Virus record (IMG/VR): IMGVR_UViG_3300024243_000006
Coordinates: 62,001-126,000 of that record
Length of the DNA stretch: 64,000 bases
From: a virus
Direction: 5' to 3' (one strand)
Both the position numbers and the translations under genes were made by a program. Shown in pieces: positions 4,736 to 53,459 of this stretch. How positions within the stretch are numbered: the stretch's first letter is position 1; each line of letters opens with the position of its first letter. Below the pieces are notes generated by a model that was given only the letters and a program-made list of their open reading frames with translations, did no database searches and was not told the DNA's origin.

Positions 4736-4811
4736 GGAGGCCGTTTATGGCTTGGTATATATGGTTAATCATAGCGATATGTTGCCTCATACTAATCTGC
4801 AAACGGCCTCC
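4736..4811 (+). promoter_or_regulatory. Inverted repeat sequestering a ribosome-binding site
   Basis: A perfect 11-bp inverted repeat, GGAGGCCGTTT at 4736-4746 and its complement at 4801-4811, encloses a 54-nt loop. The left arm contains the GGAGG ribosome-binding site of the micro-ORF at 4747. The right arm lies inside the same ORF near its end. In RNA the site would be paired until a ribosome, helicase or partner opens it. There is no U-run after it, so an ordinary terminator is unlikely. Confidence 0.65.
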
Positions 4812-10768: not shown

Positions 10769-10777
10769 ATGCTTCGA

Positions 10778-10809
10778 AATTTTCTAAAATTCCTGTAGGA
10801 CGTTATAGG
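10778..10809 (+). promoter_or_regulatory. Recurrent promoter-like motif, copy B
   Basis: Reads TTTTCTAA, then ATTCCTGTAGG, then GTTATAGG at the same spacing as the other copies. It lies ten bases after a stop codon and 43 bases before the ATG at 10852. It is also flanked by the inverted pair CTTCGAAA (10772-10779) and TTTCGAAG (10811-10818), which might be an operator. Confidence 0.65.
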
Positions 10810-14891: not shown

Positions 14892-14921
14892 TGAAGTGAG
14901 TTATAGTGAACGCTCACTTCA
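14892..14921 (+). terminator. 9-bp hairpin before the fibre-like gene
   Basis: TGAAGTGAG pairs perfectly with CTCACTTCA around a 12-nt loop. No U-run follows and the next start codon is 13 bases away. It may be a terminator, a processing site or a translational control element. Confidence 0.35.
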
Positions 14922-16710: not shown

Positions 16711-17113
16711 GGGGGCGTTTTGGATTCGACCGGGTAACAGATAGGAATAGTGCAAGCCGATCAAGGTAACTCAGATCGTTATAAGCGTTACAAAAAACAA
16801 ACTAGTTGACGACTATTCATTCGTGTACGCAAACGCAGGCAGAGGCTTCGGCGCTCCTGTAGTAGCATACGCCTAATTCCGATTTAGGCATGTGGACTCT
16901 GTGTTCCATATATCCAAACACAGATAAGTGGTTGAACGCACTGACATAAACATTGTTCAAAAATGGAGTAGCCCGAAAGGGAGGAGGCGTCTATCATTTG
17001 GCGTCAGGGGATAAAATGAATACTTTGCCTATTTAGAGAAATGGGATAAGCTTGTGAACGACTTGAAATTGACGTTATGCGACACGAGGGTTCGACTCCC
17101 TCCGCCTCCACCA
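16711..17113 (+). ncRNA. ssrA: tmRNA
   Basis: The 5' end GGGGGCGTTTTGGATTCGAC is diagnostic of tmRNA. It pairs with the 3' end CGCCTCC, followed by ACCA. The T arm GAGGG/CCCTC has loop TTCGACT. The internal tag frame ends at TAA 16874-16876 with ...GAPVVAYA. If it resumes at GAC 16808 after TAGTT, the tag has 22 residues starting DDYSFVYANAG. The terminal AYA differs from the common LAA end recognised by host proteases. The RNA should rescue stalled ribosomes using host SmpB. An HNH gene follows at once. Confidence 0.95.
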
Positions 17114-17120
17114 TCAAAAC

Positions 17121-17161
17121 TTGCCTGCTCCACCTTAATTGCGTATAATTAAGGTGGAGGG
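17121..17161 (+). promoter_or_regulatory. Consensus promoter embedded in an RBS-blocking hairpin
   Basis: A perfect 13-bp inverted repeat, 17128-17140 with 17147-17159, surrounds GCGTAT. Its right arm contains the HNH gene's ribosome-binding site GGAGGG at 17156-17161. A sigma70-type promoter is superimposed: TTGCCT at 17121-17126, 17 bases, then TATAAT at 17144-17149. A transcript starting about 7 bases later would begin at the ribosome-binding site and lack the left arm, leaving the site free. Read-through RNA from upstream would fold and hide it. Confidence 0.65.
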
Positions 17162-17166
17162 CAAAT

Positions 17167-17760
17167 ATGTCACAAATAGAGTTAACTTGCGAAATATGCG
17201 GAACTACCTTTAGTAGGGCTAAGAAAGAGTACAATAGATCTCTTAAGCTTGACAGGAGAATGTTCTGTTCAAGAAGCTGCACAGGAAAAGGTGTTAAGAA
17301 TAATCTTGGAGACCAATTAGGTATAGGCAGACCTTCTAATTTGAATTCTGGAAATAGACAAGATGAATATTCCCCATTTAGATACTTTGTAAAAAAAGCG
17401 CGTGAAAGAAAGCACAAGTATGATATAGATGTAGAATATCTTAAAGTCTTATGGGAAATACAAGATGGTAGGTGTGCATTGAGCGGGCTAAAGATGGTAT
17501 TGCCAAAGAATGCATCTGTTTGGGAAAAAGATAAAGGCAATCCTTGGAAGCCAAGTCTCGACAGAACGGATCCCTCTGTTGGCTATATGAAGGGCAATGT
17601 TAGATTTGTTTGCAATATTGGAAACCTTTGCAAAAACATTTGGCCAGACGATACCGTGTACCATTTCTGCAAAGAGGTAGCGAAGAATATGGCAAAGCCT
17701 GTGCGTTGCGGCGGATTAGATTATAAGGAGGCAGAGGATGGGCAAGAAAGAAGCTCTTGA
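17167..17760 (+). CDS. HNH-type homing endonuclease, free-standing
   Basis: A 197-residue protein. CEIC at 9-12 and CSRSC near 35-39 form a zinc-finger-like pair. The nuclease core includes DGRCALSGL and SLDRTDPSVGYMKGNVRFVC, the layout of phage HNH-like endonucleases where an Asp-Arg pair and an Asn replace classic HNH residues. It sits directly behind the tmRNA 3' end, a typical landing place for mobile genes. It has its own promoter and hairpin control. The target site is unknown. Confidence 0.82.
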   Translation: MSQIELTCEICGTTFSRAKKEYNRSLKLDRRMFCSRSCTGKGVKNNLGDQLGIGRPSNLNSGNRQDEYSPFRYFVKKARERKHKYDIDVEYLKVLWEIQDGRCALSGLKMVLPKNASVWEKDKGNPWKPSLDRTDPSVGYMKGNVRFVCNIGNLCKNIWPDDTVYHFCKEVAKNMAKPVRCGGLDYKEAEDGQERSS

Positions 17761-20629: not shown

Positions 20630-20867
20630 ATTATTCGAGTCTATTAACAAGGTGAGAGAGATTAACTCGGAGCATTGTTATCACAAGGTTCTCGTGTTTG
20701 ATGAGGATGGGCATTACGAAACTCTCATGATGACGGAACACGAGTTATCTGTAATTAGACAGCGCTCAGAGAGGAACCGTGACGAGGAGCTTGTTCCTAA
20801 GTGGCATGACAAGGCTTATGTTTCTGCTGTTTTTTCGGTAAAGAGTCTATTCGCCAAAGTTTTCTAA
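20619..20867 (+). CDS. Hypothetical protein
   Basis: An 82-residue charged protein, ATG start with GAGGAG upstream. Its stop codon lies inside promoter-like copy C. No recognised family. It is the last gene of the small-gene run that begins at 17738. Confidence 0.55.
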   Translation: MIGKLFESINKVREINSEHCYHKVLVFDEDGHYETLMMTEHELSVIRQRSERNRDEELVPKWHDKAYVSAVFSVKSLFAKVF

Positions 20868-20889
20868 ATTTCCCATAAGATGTTATAGG
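20858..20889 (+). promoter_or_regulatory. Recurrent promoter-like motif, copy C
   Basis: Reads TTTTCTAA, TTTCCCATAAG and GTTATAGG at the standard spacing, one of the best copies. Unlike the others it faces the 3' end of the minus-strand gene at 20907. A transcript from it would run antisense through that gene before reaching the + strand gene at 21868. Confidence 0.6.
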
Positions 20890-31237: not shown

Positions 31238-31248
31238 GCGTTAGAGCA

Positions 31249-31281
31249 TATTTTTCCAAATTTCCCACAGGGTGGTATAAG
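31249..31281 (+). promoter_or_regulatory. Recurrent promoter-like motif, copy D
   Basis: Reads TTTTTCCAA, TTTCCCACAGG and GGTATAAG at the standard spacing. It is placed between a terminator and the PurA-family gene, with about 73 nt of leader, an ideal position for a promoter. Confidence 0.7.
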
Positions 31282-31354
31282 GGAGCATGTCCGTAGCTCT
31301 TAGTAGTTGCCTTGTATTCGCTTCGGTACTATTATCGCTCATGGAGGAATTTAC

Positions 31355-32365
31355 ATGTTGTTATCCGCAGATGTTGTAGTGGGGCTCGCTTGGGGCGATG
31401 AAGCAAAAGGAAAGATCACCTCAGCCTTGGCAGCTACAGGGCAGTACGACGCCGTGGCTCGCTGGGCCGGAGGCAATAACGCAGGCCATACGGTCTACGT
31501 CAATGGCGAAAAATACAAAACACACCTTGTTCCAAGCGGCGTATTCCACGGAATGCTTTCCATCGTTGGTCCCGGCTGTGTATTGCATCCAGAAGAATTT
31601 GAAAAAGAATTGGCTTACCTCGCAGGACACGGATTCGATACCTCTCTTGTGAAGGTATCTCCGAATTGCCACATTGTTCAAGACGAGCATATTGAGTTTG
31701 ACAAGCAGAACCTTGCAAAGAAGCTTGGCACAACCTCAAAAGGTATTGCACCGAGTTACGCAGCTAAGGCGGCAAGAACAGGTCTTCTTGCCAAAGACTA
31801 TTACGAAGGCAGTGACATCCTATGGGACGGTCAGCTTAGCGGTGTATTATTGTGTGAAGGAGCGCAGGGGGCTTGGTTAGATATTGATCACGGGAATTAT
31901 CCCTATGTGACCTCAAGCATTACACTTGCCTATGGAGCTTGCAGTATAGGCTTCGCACCACAGCTCATTAAGAGCATCTGGGGCGCTGCCAAAATTTATG
32001 ACACAAGAAGCGGAGAAGATCCTATTTTTCCTGCGTCACTACTTGATGACCCTATGCTGTCAAAGGTTGGGGAAATTGGGGCCGAATATGGTGTGACCAC
32101 AGGGCGCAGAAGAAAGGTAAATTGGCTTGATGTTGATATGCTGATTAAGTCTATCAATTTGACTGGATGCACACACGTTGTTGTTAGCAAATGTGATGTA
32201 TTGGAAGAGGCCGGAGTTTACAGGATGTATTGTAGAGGGATTCAGAACGAGCTTTCTGAGTTCGAAAGCATTACCGATATGACCGGAGTGCTGGAGACTC
32301 TTCTTAGAAAGAATTGTTCCCTTCTCAAGAGAGTGATCTTTTCCTCTTCACCGGAGAATATATGA
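31355..32365 (+). CDS. purA: Adenylosuccinate synthetase family enzyme (PurA/PurZ-like)
   Basis: A 336-residue protein, about 90 shorter than bacterial PurA and close to archaeal PurA and phage PurZ forms. GLAWGDEAKGK holds the catalytic Asp15. NNAGHT, TSKGIAPSYAAK, CEGAQGAWLDIDHG and TTGRRRK follow in family order. PurA joins IMP and aspartate; phage PurZ uses dGMP to make the 2-aminoadenine precursor. The Asp is kept as in PurA and the PurZ0-type enzymes. ATG at 31355 follows GGAGG. An IMPDH/GMPR-family gene is at 34758 and an HD hydrolase at 61829. Confidence 0.88.
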   Translation: MLLSADVVVGLAWGDEAKGKITSALAATGQYDAVARWAGGNNAGHTVYVNGEKYKTHLVPSGVFHGMLSIVGPGCVLHPEEFEKELAYLAGHGFDTSLVKVSPNCHIVQDEHIEFDKQNLAKKLGTTSKGIAPSYAAKAARTGLLAKDYYEGSDILWDGQLSGVLLCEGAQGAWLDIDHGNYPYVTSSITLAYGACSIGFAPQLIKSIWGAAKIYDTRSGEDPIFPASLLDDPMLSKVGEIGAEYGVTTGRRRKVNWLDVDMLIKSINLTGCTHVVVSKCDVLEEAGVYRMYCRGIQNELSEFESITDMTGVLETLLRKNCSLLKRVIFSSSPENI

Positions 32366-34167: not shown

Positions 34168-34751
34168 ACAAAGGGAGAGTTATATTTGTGCTCTCCCTTC
34201 TTGTTACGTTTCTGGTGGGGTTCAAAACAATGACTCCAGCTTATAACAAACTATCAGATGTGTCGTTTACTGTTCACGATGTGTGGGCCAATACAAGTGT
34301 TCCATTGGGAACGAGGTACATATATCATGGGCAGGATTCGGCGCTTTCTGATAAAGAAGTTGAGAGGGTGATTAAGAAGACGGAAATAGCTATCCAACAT
34401 TACTCCAAAGAAAAGGGCTATCCAATGGAGCAATGCAGAACAATCGACACCTTAGAGATTTATTATGTGAGGCAGGATGAGTTGAACAAAAGAGGAAGAT
34501 TTCCTATTTTTATGAATGAAAACCTTAGCCCCAATGATGTTGTGTGGGGAGTTTACGATCCTGTAAGCCAAAGCCCTCATTACGCTGTTTTGATGATATC
34601 GAATCCAGGCGGAACCAAGACTGAAGAGACTCAAGCGCATGAGTTGTATCACTATTGGTATGACAGATTTTGTTGGGAGCGGCATCACCCTGGAGATCCA
34701 GAGTCTGCTGCCCTTGAATTTGAAACCTTTTATGAATTAAACTATATGTGA
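34164..34751 (+). CDS. Exported zinc metalloprotease-like protein
   Basis: A 195-residue protein with a hydrophobic N-terminal signal or anchor (about 5-20). QAHELYHYW contains HExxH with His159, Glu160 and His163. Glu185 or Glu187 in AALEFE could be the third zinc ligand, as in gluzincins. It should act outside the cytoplasm. The target may be cell-envelope protein or, if carried by the virion, a host barrier. The ATG overlaps the preceding stop. No family name is assigned. Confidence 0.65.
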   Translation: MNKGRVIFVLSLLVTFLVGFKTMTPAYNKLSDVSFTVHDVWANTSVPLGTRYIYHGQDSALSDKEVERVIKKTEIAIQHYSKEKGYPMEQCRTIDTLEIYYVRQDELNKRGRFPIFMNENLSPNDVVWGVYDPVSQSPHYAVLMISNPGGTKTEETQAHELYHYWYDRFCWERHHPGDPESAALEFETFYELNYM

Positions 34752-35802: not shown

Positions 35803-36132
35803 ATGAGCGAAGATAAAAAGTTACCATCAGTAGAAGAGGTGCTGGAAGAGTTTAGAGTTCTTAAGGGAAGGATTGGAGGTATTCAGAAATATCTGGCAGG
35901 GCTCCATGCTGAGGAAGAAGGCAGGGCTGGCAGTGTCGAGTCAGAGGAGCCTGAGGAGACTTATATTACATATAGTAGAGCCGAAGAGGTGCTCCACATA
36001 ACCCAAATGATTACAGAACAGTTAAAAATTATGCACAACTTCTCTGATCACGAAATACAAATGGATGTTTCAAAAACTTCCGCCCGAGTGATCAAGGTAC
36101 ACAGCCGAATCTTAGACCACCTAGAGAAATAA
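35803..36132 (+). CDS. Hypothetical helical protein
   Basis: A 109-residue acidic, coiled-coil-like protein one base after the previous stop. No recognised family. Its stop codon overlaps the start of promoter-like copy E. Confidence 0.55.
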   Translation: MSEDKKLPSVEEVLEEFRVLKGRIGGIQKYLAGLHAEEEGRAGSVESEEPEETYITYSRAEEVLHITQMITEQLKIMHNFSDHEIQMDVSKTSARVIKVHSRILDHLEK

Positions 36133-36163
36133 TTTTTCTAAGCTACTCGTAGGAGGTTATAGG
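36131..36163 (+). promoter_or_regulatory. Recurrent promoter-like motif, copy E
   Basis: Reads TTTTTCTAA, GCTACTCGTAGG and GTTATAGG at the standard spacing. The central part is diverged, as in copy B. It precedes the MoxR-type ATPase gene by about 57 nt. Confidence 0.65.
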
Positions 36164-37293: not shown

Positions 37294-38568
37294 ATGAGTG
37301 AAATGGAAAAGACAGAGCTGGAAGAAAACGAAGAGAAGGTAAGGCTTCAAAAGGAGTTGCTTGCGGCAAGAAGGGTTATGTCCCGAGAGGGGCTTGAGAG
37401 ACTTGAAATTGGAATCTCAAGATTAACTTTATCTTTTCCACTCTTTTACATTCCCCTCATTAACCTTAGAAAGGTTGAGTCATGGAACATTCCAACGATG
37501 GGTGTTGGTCCGGTCAATAAGATTGAACTCGGACTATACTATAACCCCGAGTTTACGCTTAGTCTAAATCCTATTGAGTTGCGAGCAGTATTACAGCATG
37601 AAGCCATGCACATTCTGCTTCAGCACCTTACCAGAGGTAGAGACTTCGGTTCCAATTTCAAGATGTATAACATTGCGGCTGATTTGACCATCAATCCCAA
37701 GCTCGAAGGTATTCCGAGTTGGGCTTATTTCCCCGAAAAGGAAGGTCTTCCTTCGAATGAATCGGCAGAACTTTACTACAAGCTCCTAAAAGAGCGACGT
37801 GAAGAGATGACGAAGAGAATGAAGAAGCAGATGGAGGGTATGACTGACGAACAAATCGCTGATGCATTCTTTAAGTCCCTTGAGGGAGAGGCACTTGACG
37901 ACCACTCTATGTGGGAAGATATGACTCAGACTCAGAAGGATATCATCAAAGAGAAGATTCGTAACTTATCAGAAGAGGCTATGAGGGCGCAGGATGCTGT
38001 CGGTTGGGGAAAGGTTCCGGGGAATTTGCATGAAGAGATTATGGCGGCGAATAAGCCGTTAGTAAATTGGAAAAGAGAGCTTAAGTTCTTTATTGGGCAG
38101 GTTGTCTCATGCGGGAGGAAGAGTACAAGGCTGCGTCCCAACAGGCGCTACAAGTATCTCCAGCCTGGAACGAAAAGGAGTTATACCAGTAAGCTTCTAA
38201 TCGCATTGGATTGCTCCGGCTCAGTATCTGATAAAGAGCTTCAGATGTTTATTGATGAAGTGACGGGAATGGTAGGTAAGGTTCAGGTTGATGTAATTCC
38301 ATTCGATGCGGTATGTCATGGAGAACCTCAGAAATTCACAAGGAAAAATGCCAGCATCAAAGTGCATGGCAGAGGCGGAACCGATTTCGGTCCCCCTATC
38401 AGAATGGCTGATGATCTTAAGTATGATGGACTAATCGTAATGACAGATGGAGAGTGCAGTTTCCCTGTCGCTCCACGCTGTAGAATGATGTGGGTTCTGT
38501 CGCGCAATTCGTCATGGGCTGACCCGCCCCCTTACGGAAGGGTTATACAGCTTAATGAATTAGGTTGA
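37294..38568 (+). CDS. VWA-domain putative metallopeptidase (DUF2201-like)
   Basis: A 424-residue protein. VLQHEAMHILLQH holds a zinc site HExxH at His102, Glu103 and His106. The C-terminal third is a von Willebrand A domain with the metal-binding motif LDCSGSVSDKE and later VMTDGE. This arrangement is seen in DUF2201-type proteins that are paired with MoxR ATPases. The start directly abuts the ATPase stop. The client protein is unknown. A strong terminator follows, so the pair forms one transcription unit. Confidence 0.8.
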   Translation: MSEMEKTELEENEEKVRLQKELLAARRVMSREGLERLEIGISRLTLSFPLFYIPLINLRKVESWNIPTMGVGPVNKIELGLYYNPEFTLSLNPIELRAVLQHEAMHILLQHLTRGRDFGSNFKMYNIAADLTINPKLEGIPSWAYFPEKEGLPSNESAELYYKLLKERREEMTKRMKKQMEGMTDEQIADAFFKSLEGEALDDHSMWEDMTQTQKDIIKEKIRNLSEEAMRAQDAVGWGKVPGNLHEEIMAANKPLVNWKRELKFFIGQVVSCGRKSTRLRPNRRYKYLQPGTKRSYTSKLLIALDCSGSVSDKELQMFIDEVTGMVGKVQVDVIPFDAVCHGEPQKFTRKNASIKVHGRGGTDFGPPIRMADDLKYDGLIVMTDGECSFPVAPRCRMMWVLSRNSSWADPPPYGRVIQLNELG

Positions 38569-38572
38569 GTAC

Positions 38573-38606
38573 AAAGGGGTAGAGACTTCCGGGTCTCTAC
38601 CCCTTT
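38573..38606 (+). terminator. Strong terminator hairpin after MoxR/VWA operon
   Basis: A perfect 14-bp stem, AAAGGGGTAGAGAC with GTCTCTACCCCTTT, around TTCCGG. A second hairpin CCCCGC/GCGGGG (38607-38624) follows at once. Confidence 0.8.
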
Positions 38607-44835: not shown

Positions 44836-44860
44836 GATATCTTTGCCTACGAATGAGCGA

Positions 44861-44892
44861 AGTTTTCTAAATTTCCCACAAGGGGTTATAAG
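44861..44892 (+). promoter_or_regulatory. Recurrent promoter-like motif, copy F
   Basis: Reads TTTTCTAA, TTTCCCACAAG and GTTATAAG, the best match to the consensus. It lies 25 bases after a structural gene and about 45 bases before the GTG at 44937, at the head of the replication block. Confidence 0.7.
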
Positions 44893-52691: not shown

Positions 52692-53459
52692 ATGGACGAG
52701 TTAACAGAAGAATTGAACGAAGAGCTGAATAAGATTGAGAACGAAATAGAGGTTGCTAAAGAAGGGAAGAAAGCTTCTTTCGAGGGCATAGTTAGAGTAT
52801 ATGACGAGACGTTCTATGTGAACACCGAAACCGGTGTTGGTTTGGATAGCGTGCTAAAGAAGATTGAGCCGCTCTTGAATAAGATGTCTTCCAAGACATA
52901 TATTGCTGGATATACCTTTGAGGATATCAAACAAGAATTAACCATTATGGCGATCCAGGGGGTCTGTTCTTACAACCCTGCACGAGGAACAAAGCTTAGT
53001 TCATTCCTTCAGACTCATCTTAAGAATAAGCTTATCTCTAAGTTAAGAAGCGTTAATAAAATGTCCAATGATTCTTTTGCGCTATATGAGAAGAAGGGTT
53101 CTAATGTTGGTGGCGGTAAGATCAGAAAGGTAAGGGAAGAGATTCTGTTTAGTGCCTGTACCCCAGATAGTGTTGTAGACCCATCTATGATGTTCGAGAA
53201 TACTGTCGCAGAGGAAGAGGGACTGTACGGAAAGACTGGACCATCGTTTGCTGATAAGGATTTTCAGCTTGCGCTTGAAAGTCTTGAGGGTGAAATTGAT
53301 GAAGACACTATCACTATCATGAAGCTCATCTATTACGAAGATTACCCAATTAAAAAGGCAGCAGCAGTTGTAGGATTGACGGGATGGGCCGCAAGTATGC
53401 GACTCAAGAAGCTTACTGAGAACGAGTGCTTCATGGATGCCTTCGGAGATATGGTATAA
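52692..53459 (+). CDS. Phage sigma-70-family sigma factor
   Basis: A 255-residue protein. The region around 76-120 (FEDIKQELTIMAIQGV, FLQTHLKNKLISKLR) matches sigma region 2. The C-terminal DTITIMKLIYYEDYPIKKAA, AVVGLTGWAASMRLKKL matches region 4 with its helix-turn-helix. Regions 1.1 and 3 are not evident, as in T4 gp55-like late sigma factors. It is the best candidate to read the six recurrent promoter-like motifs of the window. ATG start after GGAGAATAA. Confidence 0.83.
   Translation: MDELTEELNEELNKIENEIEVAKEGKKASFEGIVRVYDETFYVNTETGVGLDSVLKKIEPLLNKMSSKTYIAGYTFEDIKQELTIMAIQGVCSYNPARGTKLSSFLQTHLKNKLISKLRSVNKMSNDSFALYEKKGSNVGGGKIRKVREEILFSACTPDSVVDPSMMFENTVAEEEGLYGKTGPSFADKDFQLALESLEGEIDEDTITIMKLIYYEDYPIKKAAAVVGLTGWAASMRLKKLTENECFMDAFGDMV

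Follow-up and report, generated by a model that had tools for sequence, protein, structure and literature searches.

Hairpins that hide the ribosome-binding site (RBS) of an endonuclease gene, together with internal promoters, have been described for I-TevI, I-TevII, and I-TevIII and for the free-standing genes segB of T4 and mobE of phage Aeh1 (PMC2988022). Separately, group I introns have been reported in the T-loop of tmRNA, with HEGs in 36 of 883 and LAGLIDADG genes in some (PMC11915505). Here, we analyzed a 64-kb stretch of viral DNA (the window) in which a free-standing HNH endonuclease gene follows a tmRNA gene. As in the case of T4 I-TevI (and I-TevII and I-TevIII), a stable hairpin is predicted to sequester the endonuclease RBS in read-through RNA, and an internal start would free it; however, the host of I-TevI is a protein gene whereas here it is a tmRNA, and I-TevI is served by an internal late promoter whereas the candidate here is TATAATTA, with a putative start and no late motif. 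Like the window gene, for which the promoter is a candidate, segB and mobE are free-standing endonuclease genes with a promoter and an RBS-hiding hairpin, mobE also being of the HNH type and segB lying among the T4 tRNA genes (PMC2988022), but segB is a GIY-YIG gene, mobE is found in nrd genes, and neither is linked to tmRNA. An earlier note on this DNA had extended the I-TevI logic to a free-standing endonuclease; a free-standing case is not new, such gating having already been reported for T4 segB and Aeh1 mobE (PMC2988022). A tmRNA-linked HNH family, free-standing or antisense in introns, was on the other hand not found in the open literature searched. The tmRNA T-loop introns of PMC11915505 share with this family the target gene and the intron subsite region GGGTT|CGA, and several HNH relatives of the window gene reside inside such introns; but the endonucleases reported in that work are of the LAGLIDADG type, it describes neither HNH members nor antisense placement nor free-standing copies downstream, and the window tmRNA is intron-free.

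Our preferred reading, to which we give a probability of about 0.6, is that a free-standing HNH endonuclease would home on tmRNA genes and be placed just downstream of its target. Transcripts begun at upstream phage promoters would cross the tmRNA and continue into the HNH gene, and in this read-through RNA the left hairpin arm, which carries a CTCCAC copy, would pair with the Shine-Dalgarno (SD) sequence and block translation. A second RNA, driven by TATAATTA at 17144, would start inside the hairpin, without the left arm, and would be translated. Active homing, a transcript start at ~17156, and the translational effect are what we infer from the computed features presented below.

An HNH gene immediately downstream of an intact tmRNA gene

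The window is part of a 149-kb virus record, and a near-identical stretch is found in an IMG/VR phage genome of 395 kb (G001, with window base 1 at G001 308503), whose gene content includes GroEL and many tRNAs. The features of the locus are as follows.

10776..10809, + strand: nearest upstream phage promoter motif, with GTTATA at 10802 (next motif at 20882)
16711..17113, + strand: tmRNA gene, tag DDYSFVYANAGRGFGAPVVAYA, uninterrupted (ARAGORN; Rfam RF00023, 81 bits)
17106..17111, + strand: CTCCAC copy 1, the tmRNA 3' end (paired HTCCAY copies in relatives)
17121..17125, + strand: TTGCC, lower-stem extension pairing with GGCAA, which also makes up all but the last base of the proposed -35 TTGCCT (sequence, folding)
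17128..17140, + strand: left (anti-SD) arm CTCCACCTTAATT, starting with CTCCAC copy 2 (inverted repeat, folding)
17144..17151, + strand: TATAATTA, candidate -10 in the loop and right arm, 23 nt upstream of the ATG (8-mer positional bias)
17147..17159, + strand: right arm AATTAAGGTGGAG, holding most of the SD (inverted repeat, folding)
17156..17161, + strand: SD GGAGGG, with the predicted transcript start, 17156, on it (sequence; accessibility by RNA start)
17160..17164, + strand: GGCAA, lower-stem partner of TTGCC (folding)
17167..17760, + strand: HNH endonuclease gene, 197 aa (PHROG endonuclease 1.4e-19; AlphaFold; family alignments)

The window HNH gene is a nuclease-fold gene outside introns and inteins with an intact tmRNA immediately upstream (PHROG, fold, ARAGORN, Rfam). 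Because this tmRNA is uninterrupted by both ARAGORN and Rfam, the gene does not lie inside a tmRNA group I intron, and the position that such an intron occupies in the joined relatives (GGGTT|CGA, 17092/17093) is empty. The N terminus of the protein carries a C-x2-C...C-x3-C zinc-ribbon-like motif. Its AlphaFold model (pLDDT 80.7) gave weak PDB matches, mostly to HNH nucleases and headed by Gme HNH and PacI, suggestive of the same fold, and the family was not recognized by Pfam or NCBIfam models. At the DNA level the locus has only near-identical relatives (three copies), with no arm covariation to read, and phage DNA records held no match to it. The related phage G002 (GroEL 53% identical) does not have the tmRNA region, and no SD-hiding hairpins were seen at its HNH genes. 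Elsewhere in the window, a PurZ-like 2-aminoadenylosuccinate synthetase homologue (31307-32365) hints at modified (Z) DNA in the phage.

A hairpin over the SD

The hairpin arms are 100% complementary over 13 bp with a 6-nt loop, and the stem reaches 18 bp when the TTGCC/GGCAA extension beyond a 2-nt TG bulge is counted. With an MFE of -25.5 kcal/mol, it lies at z -5 to -6 against dinucleotide shuffles, none of which folded as well. In first-order (Markov) shuffles of the window, 12-bp repeats came up 0.05 times per 64 kb and repeats of at least 13 bp did not occur, whereas the real window has two inverted repeats of at least 13 bp, in the HNH leader and at 38573. Among the 12 strong SD-hiding leaders found in 381 scored genes of the 395-kb genome, the HNH leader is the most stable. 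The hairpin is beyond chance; the two-hexamer promoter match discussed below is, taken alone, within chance. The second exceptional hairpin, a 14-bp perfect stem at window 38573-38606 followed by GGGGTGAAAAAC, is directly 3' of gene 37294-38568 (PHROG HNH endonuclease family).

The earlier note had proposed that a 13-bp inverted repeat masks GGAGGG before the HNH gene and that an RNA beginning at GGAGGG, without the left arm, frees it. Folding agrees with both parts, as the repeat is perfect and GGAGGG is predicted to be ~1% open in read-through RNAs with a 5' end at or before 17121, compared with ~60-70% (over its first five bases) when the 5' end is at 17156. For 5' ends at 17134-17153, the predicted opening of GGAGGG is only partial; the SD-freeing logic therefore holds only for a start very near 17156.

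Such leaders are concentrated at endonuclease genes of this phage. With homing-endonuclease-like genes assigned by protein profile, similarity to the window HNH, or motif (one LAGLIDADG gene), and an SD counted as hidden when its pairing with upstream sequence had P>0.95, the SD was hidden in 5 of 9 scored homing-endonuclease-like genes versus 15 of 372 others (Fisher 2.6e-5), or in 4 of 8 when the window gene was excluded (Fisher 2.8e-4), the absolute counts being approximate because gene calls came from a simple script. The phage thus has RBS-hiding hairpins at several homing-endonuclease-like genes, namely the window HNH gene and those at 230844, 378661, 207920, and 294609. Of these, 294609(-) repeats the window anatomy (AACCTCA-TATAATTACA-TGAGGT), with TATAATTA in the loop of its SD-hiding hairpin. 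In the HNH gene at G001 378661-379386 (L004), a long stem of the leader covers GAGG (P paired 0.999); this gene lies immediately ahead of an apparent second GroEL-like gene.

A family of HNH genes linked to tmRNA

Relatives of the window HNH were gathered by protein similarity alone and then screened for RNAs and for script-joined intron flanks, a procedure that in the control gave 1 tmRNA call in 873 joins. tmRNA linkage was found in 25 of 28 distinct relatives, the exceptions being L051, L054/L095, and L109; L097/L099, which match the N-terminal zinc ribbon only and sit on a long branch, were left out of the count. The linked genes fall into three placements.

Type 1, same strand, just downstream of tmRNA: window, L076/77, L078, L080, L082, L089, L092, L093, L103, L104, L105, L107, L108
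Type 2, downstream of tmRNA, opposite strand: L081, L085, L087, L088, L091
Type 3, antisense in a T-loop group I intron at GGGTT|CGA: L052, L053 (crAss-like phages), L079, L090, L094, L100, L102

Where a type 3 member had no ARAGORN call, it was assigned from its group I intron, its CGAnTCC...CTCCAC 3' exon, and, if the sequence covered it, the T-arm 5' exon. The tree places the window gene with L076/77 (85/57) and L078, and type 2 is one clade. The nearest relatives, L076/L077, lie 60 nt after a tmRNA, and a hairpin of -33.8 kcal covers both their SD and their AUG. In L089, L108, and L078, the tmRNA has a T-loop group I intron and the HNH gene is 3' of the 3' exon. The pattern TATAATTAAGGNGGAGG occurs in 21 stretches of viral contigs. 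Members of the family, some in tmRNA introns and others free-standing, come from Firmicutes, cyanobacteria, a Neisseriaceae MAG, a huge phage, and crAss-like phages. Together, these data suggest a mobile endonuclease family specialized on tmRNA, which the earlier note had missed and of which the window gene is a member, and they suggest that these HNH endonucleases have their dedicated home at tmRNA, a gene present in nearly all bacteria. For homing itself, the linkage of the relatives is indirect support only. A homing target may lie near GGGTTCGA...CTCCACC in the tmRNA 3' region.

Hairpins follow orientation within this family. Scored as present when a structure with z < -2.5 covered the RBS or start codon, the hairpin was found in 8 of 11 type 1 (co-directional) members versus 0 of 12 type 2 and 3 (antisense) members (Fisher 3e-4), and by lineage in 5 of 7 versus 0 of 5 (p 0.028); the co-directional L080, L082, and L108 have no strong hairpin. 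Because only type 1 genes are in the path of tmRNA read-through, this bias is what one would expect if the hairpin protects against translation of read-through RNA. The hairpin of the cyanobacterial members resembles a tmRNA terminator, which would be another way to stop read-through. Co-directional and antisense copies thus provide a natural comparison in which RBS hairpins track read-through exposure, and this opens the idea of I-TevI gating to tests in systems other than T4.

The terminator-like cases raise the possibility that the window stem-loop is itself a terminator or a tmRNA 3'-end processing signal that covers the SD only through its closeness to the gene. Terminator-like hairpins accompanied by T runs occupy the same place in L103, L105, L106, and L107, and L089 and L108 have terminators between the 3' exon and the HNH gene. 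However, the + strand has no T run after the window stem, L089 has a separate SD-hiding hairpin past its terminator, and SD-hiding hairpins also occur at endonuclease-like genes of the phage away from tmRNA, so that we regard this explanation as improbable.

The leaders also contain conserved HTCCAY copies near the gene start that echo the CTCCAC of the tmRNA 3' end. Paired copies, 15-28 nt apart, were found in 6 of 9 type 1 and 5 of 5 type 2 leaders, compared with ~0.05 in shuffles and with 2 of the 521 genes of the phage. The anti-SD arm of the window leader is copy 2 itself, a role open to this copy because CTCCAC is complementary to the SD. The conservation of the pair before genes of either orientation, and the autorepression of I-TevI via an operator that is similar to the site at which it homes (PMC2988022), would agree with a palindrome that is mainly a DNA operator, i.e. 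the binding site of the endonuclease near its own promoter, with RNA folding secondary. But the antisense members retain HTCCAY without a hairpin, and stem sequences vary among members while burial of the RBS recurs, and an operator as the main function therefore seems to us improbable as well. A combined and tentative view, for which the odds are clearly against but less steeply, is that an HNH homing family specialized on the tmRNA 3' end has moved between intron-borne and free-standing forms and that its leader target copy serves as both a DNA operator and the anti-SD arm of an RNA switch; the operator role is speculative.

A candidate promoter inside the hairpin

In the preferred reading, the short RNA would come from a promoter nested in the hairpin, which the earlier note had placed at TTGCCT-17-TATAAT (17121-17149, a 10/12 sigma70-type match). 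Such matches are not above shuffles in the window (10 versus 9.6 expected) and are not enriched between genes: intergenic DNA makes up 9.5% of the genome and contains 5 of the 58 plus-strand sites that score 10/12 or better. The -35 half found no support, as TTGCCT is not common to other TATAATTA sites and its bases are accounted for by stem pairing with GGCAA. The -10 half fared better: TATAATTA, which spans it, is the most over-represented 8-mer 18-28 nt before phage starts (6 of 22 copies, expected 0.16, p 2e-8) and, at 20-26 nt before the ATG, a significant positional motif in the phage. The 8-mer stands before 3 of 10 homing-endonuclease-like genes, compared with 3 of the 372 others (p 2.5e-4), and two of these genes, 293900(-) and 294609(-), are HNH genes antisense among tRNA genes, a position for which an own promoter is expected. 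The transcript start inside the hairpin is therefore putative and half supported; TATAATTA could instead be an AT-rich translation element. A start on the SD would imply a leader of ~11 nt, shorter than those implied by the TACTAATA sites of the phage.

The main promoter-like motif of the phage, AAnTTTTCTAAATTTCTCATAGGATGTTATAGG, has 54 sites, 52 of them on the + strand, located in the window at 10776-10809, 20856-20889, 31248-31281, 36130-36163, and 44859-44892 and with ~49 more in G001. The motifs nearest to the locus, at 10802 and 20882, place the tmRNA and HNH genes in one read-through stretch, and between the 10776-10809 motif and the HNH gene the + strand holds one weak terminator-like match (14350), below the shuffle mean. 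The late-type motif TACTAATA lies 30-45 nt before starts in 11 of 15 cases (p 3e-17) and resembles T4 in its -10-only style; TACTAATA boxes are seen 33-60 nt before starts on both strands, in the window at 4790, 21866(-), 23312, 28522, and 50974, with others in G001. Both were considered as the hairpin promoter and rejected, the main motif having no match there and TACTAATA being absent from the leader, which gives no indication of a late promoter. The phage encodes a sigma-70 region 2 protein (window 52692-53459), and no RNA polymerase Rpb1 domain was found in G001 or G002.

The hairpin might also block translation without a dedicated promoter, the translated RNA arising by RNase processing of the tmRNA precursor, such as a cut inside the hairpin, or the gene being nearly silent. 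In favor of this, the hairpin starts 7 nt 3' of the tmRNA CCA, a place where one expects processing; the phage shows no enrichment of sigma70-type sites; and the site scores far below the main phage promoter motif. Against this are the position bias of TATAATTA, its presence ahead of the two antisense HNH genes, and the -10-like hexamers also found in the hairpin loops of L089, L092, and L093. We rate this explanation as unlikely, if the most serious of the three rivals, and retain the promoter-driven short RNA as the preferred source.

Other sites in the phage have related layouts. Two 9-bp hairpins, at window 14892-14921 and 34171-34199, lie at or shortly ahead of predicted gene starts, have GTTATA at their loops, and resemble the promoter-in-hairpin arrangement. 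At G001 141-162 kb, dense GGGG[AT]GAAAA repeats occur after strong hairpins and ahead of CTAAGTAACTCATAAGATGTTATAG promoter-like sites, and these repeat units are possibly early-gene control units.
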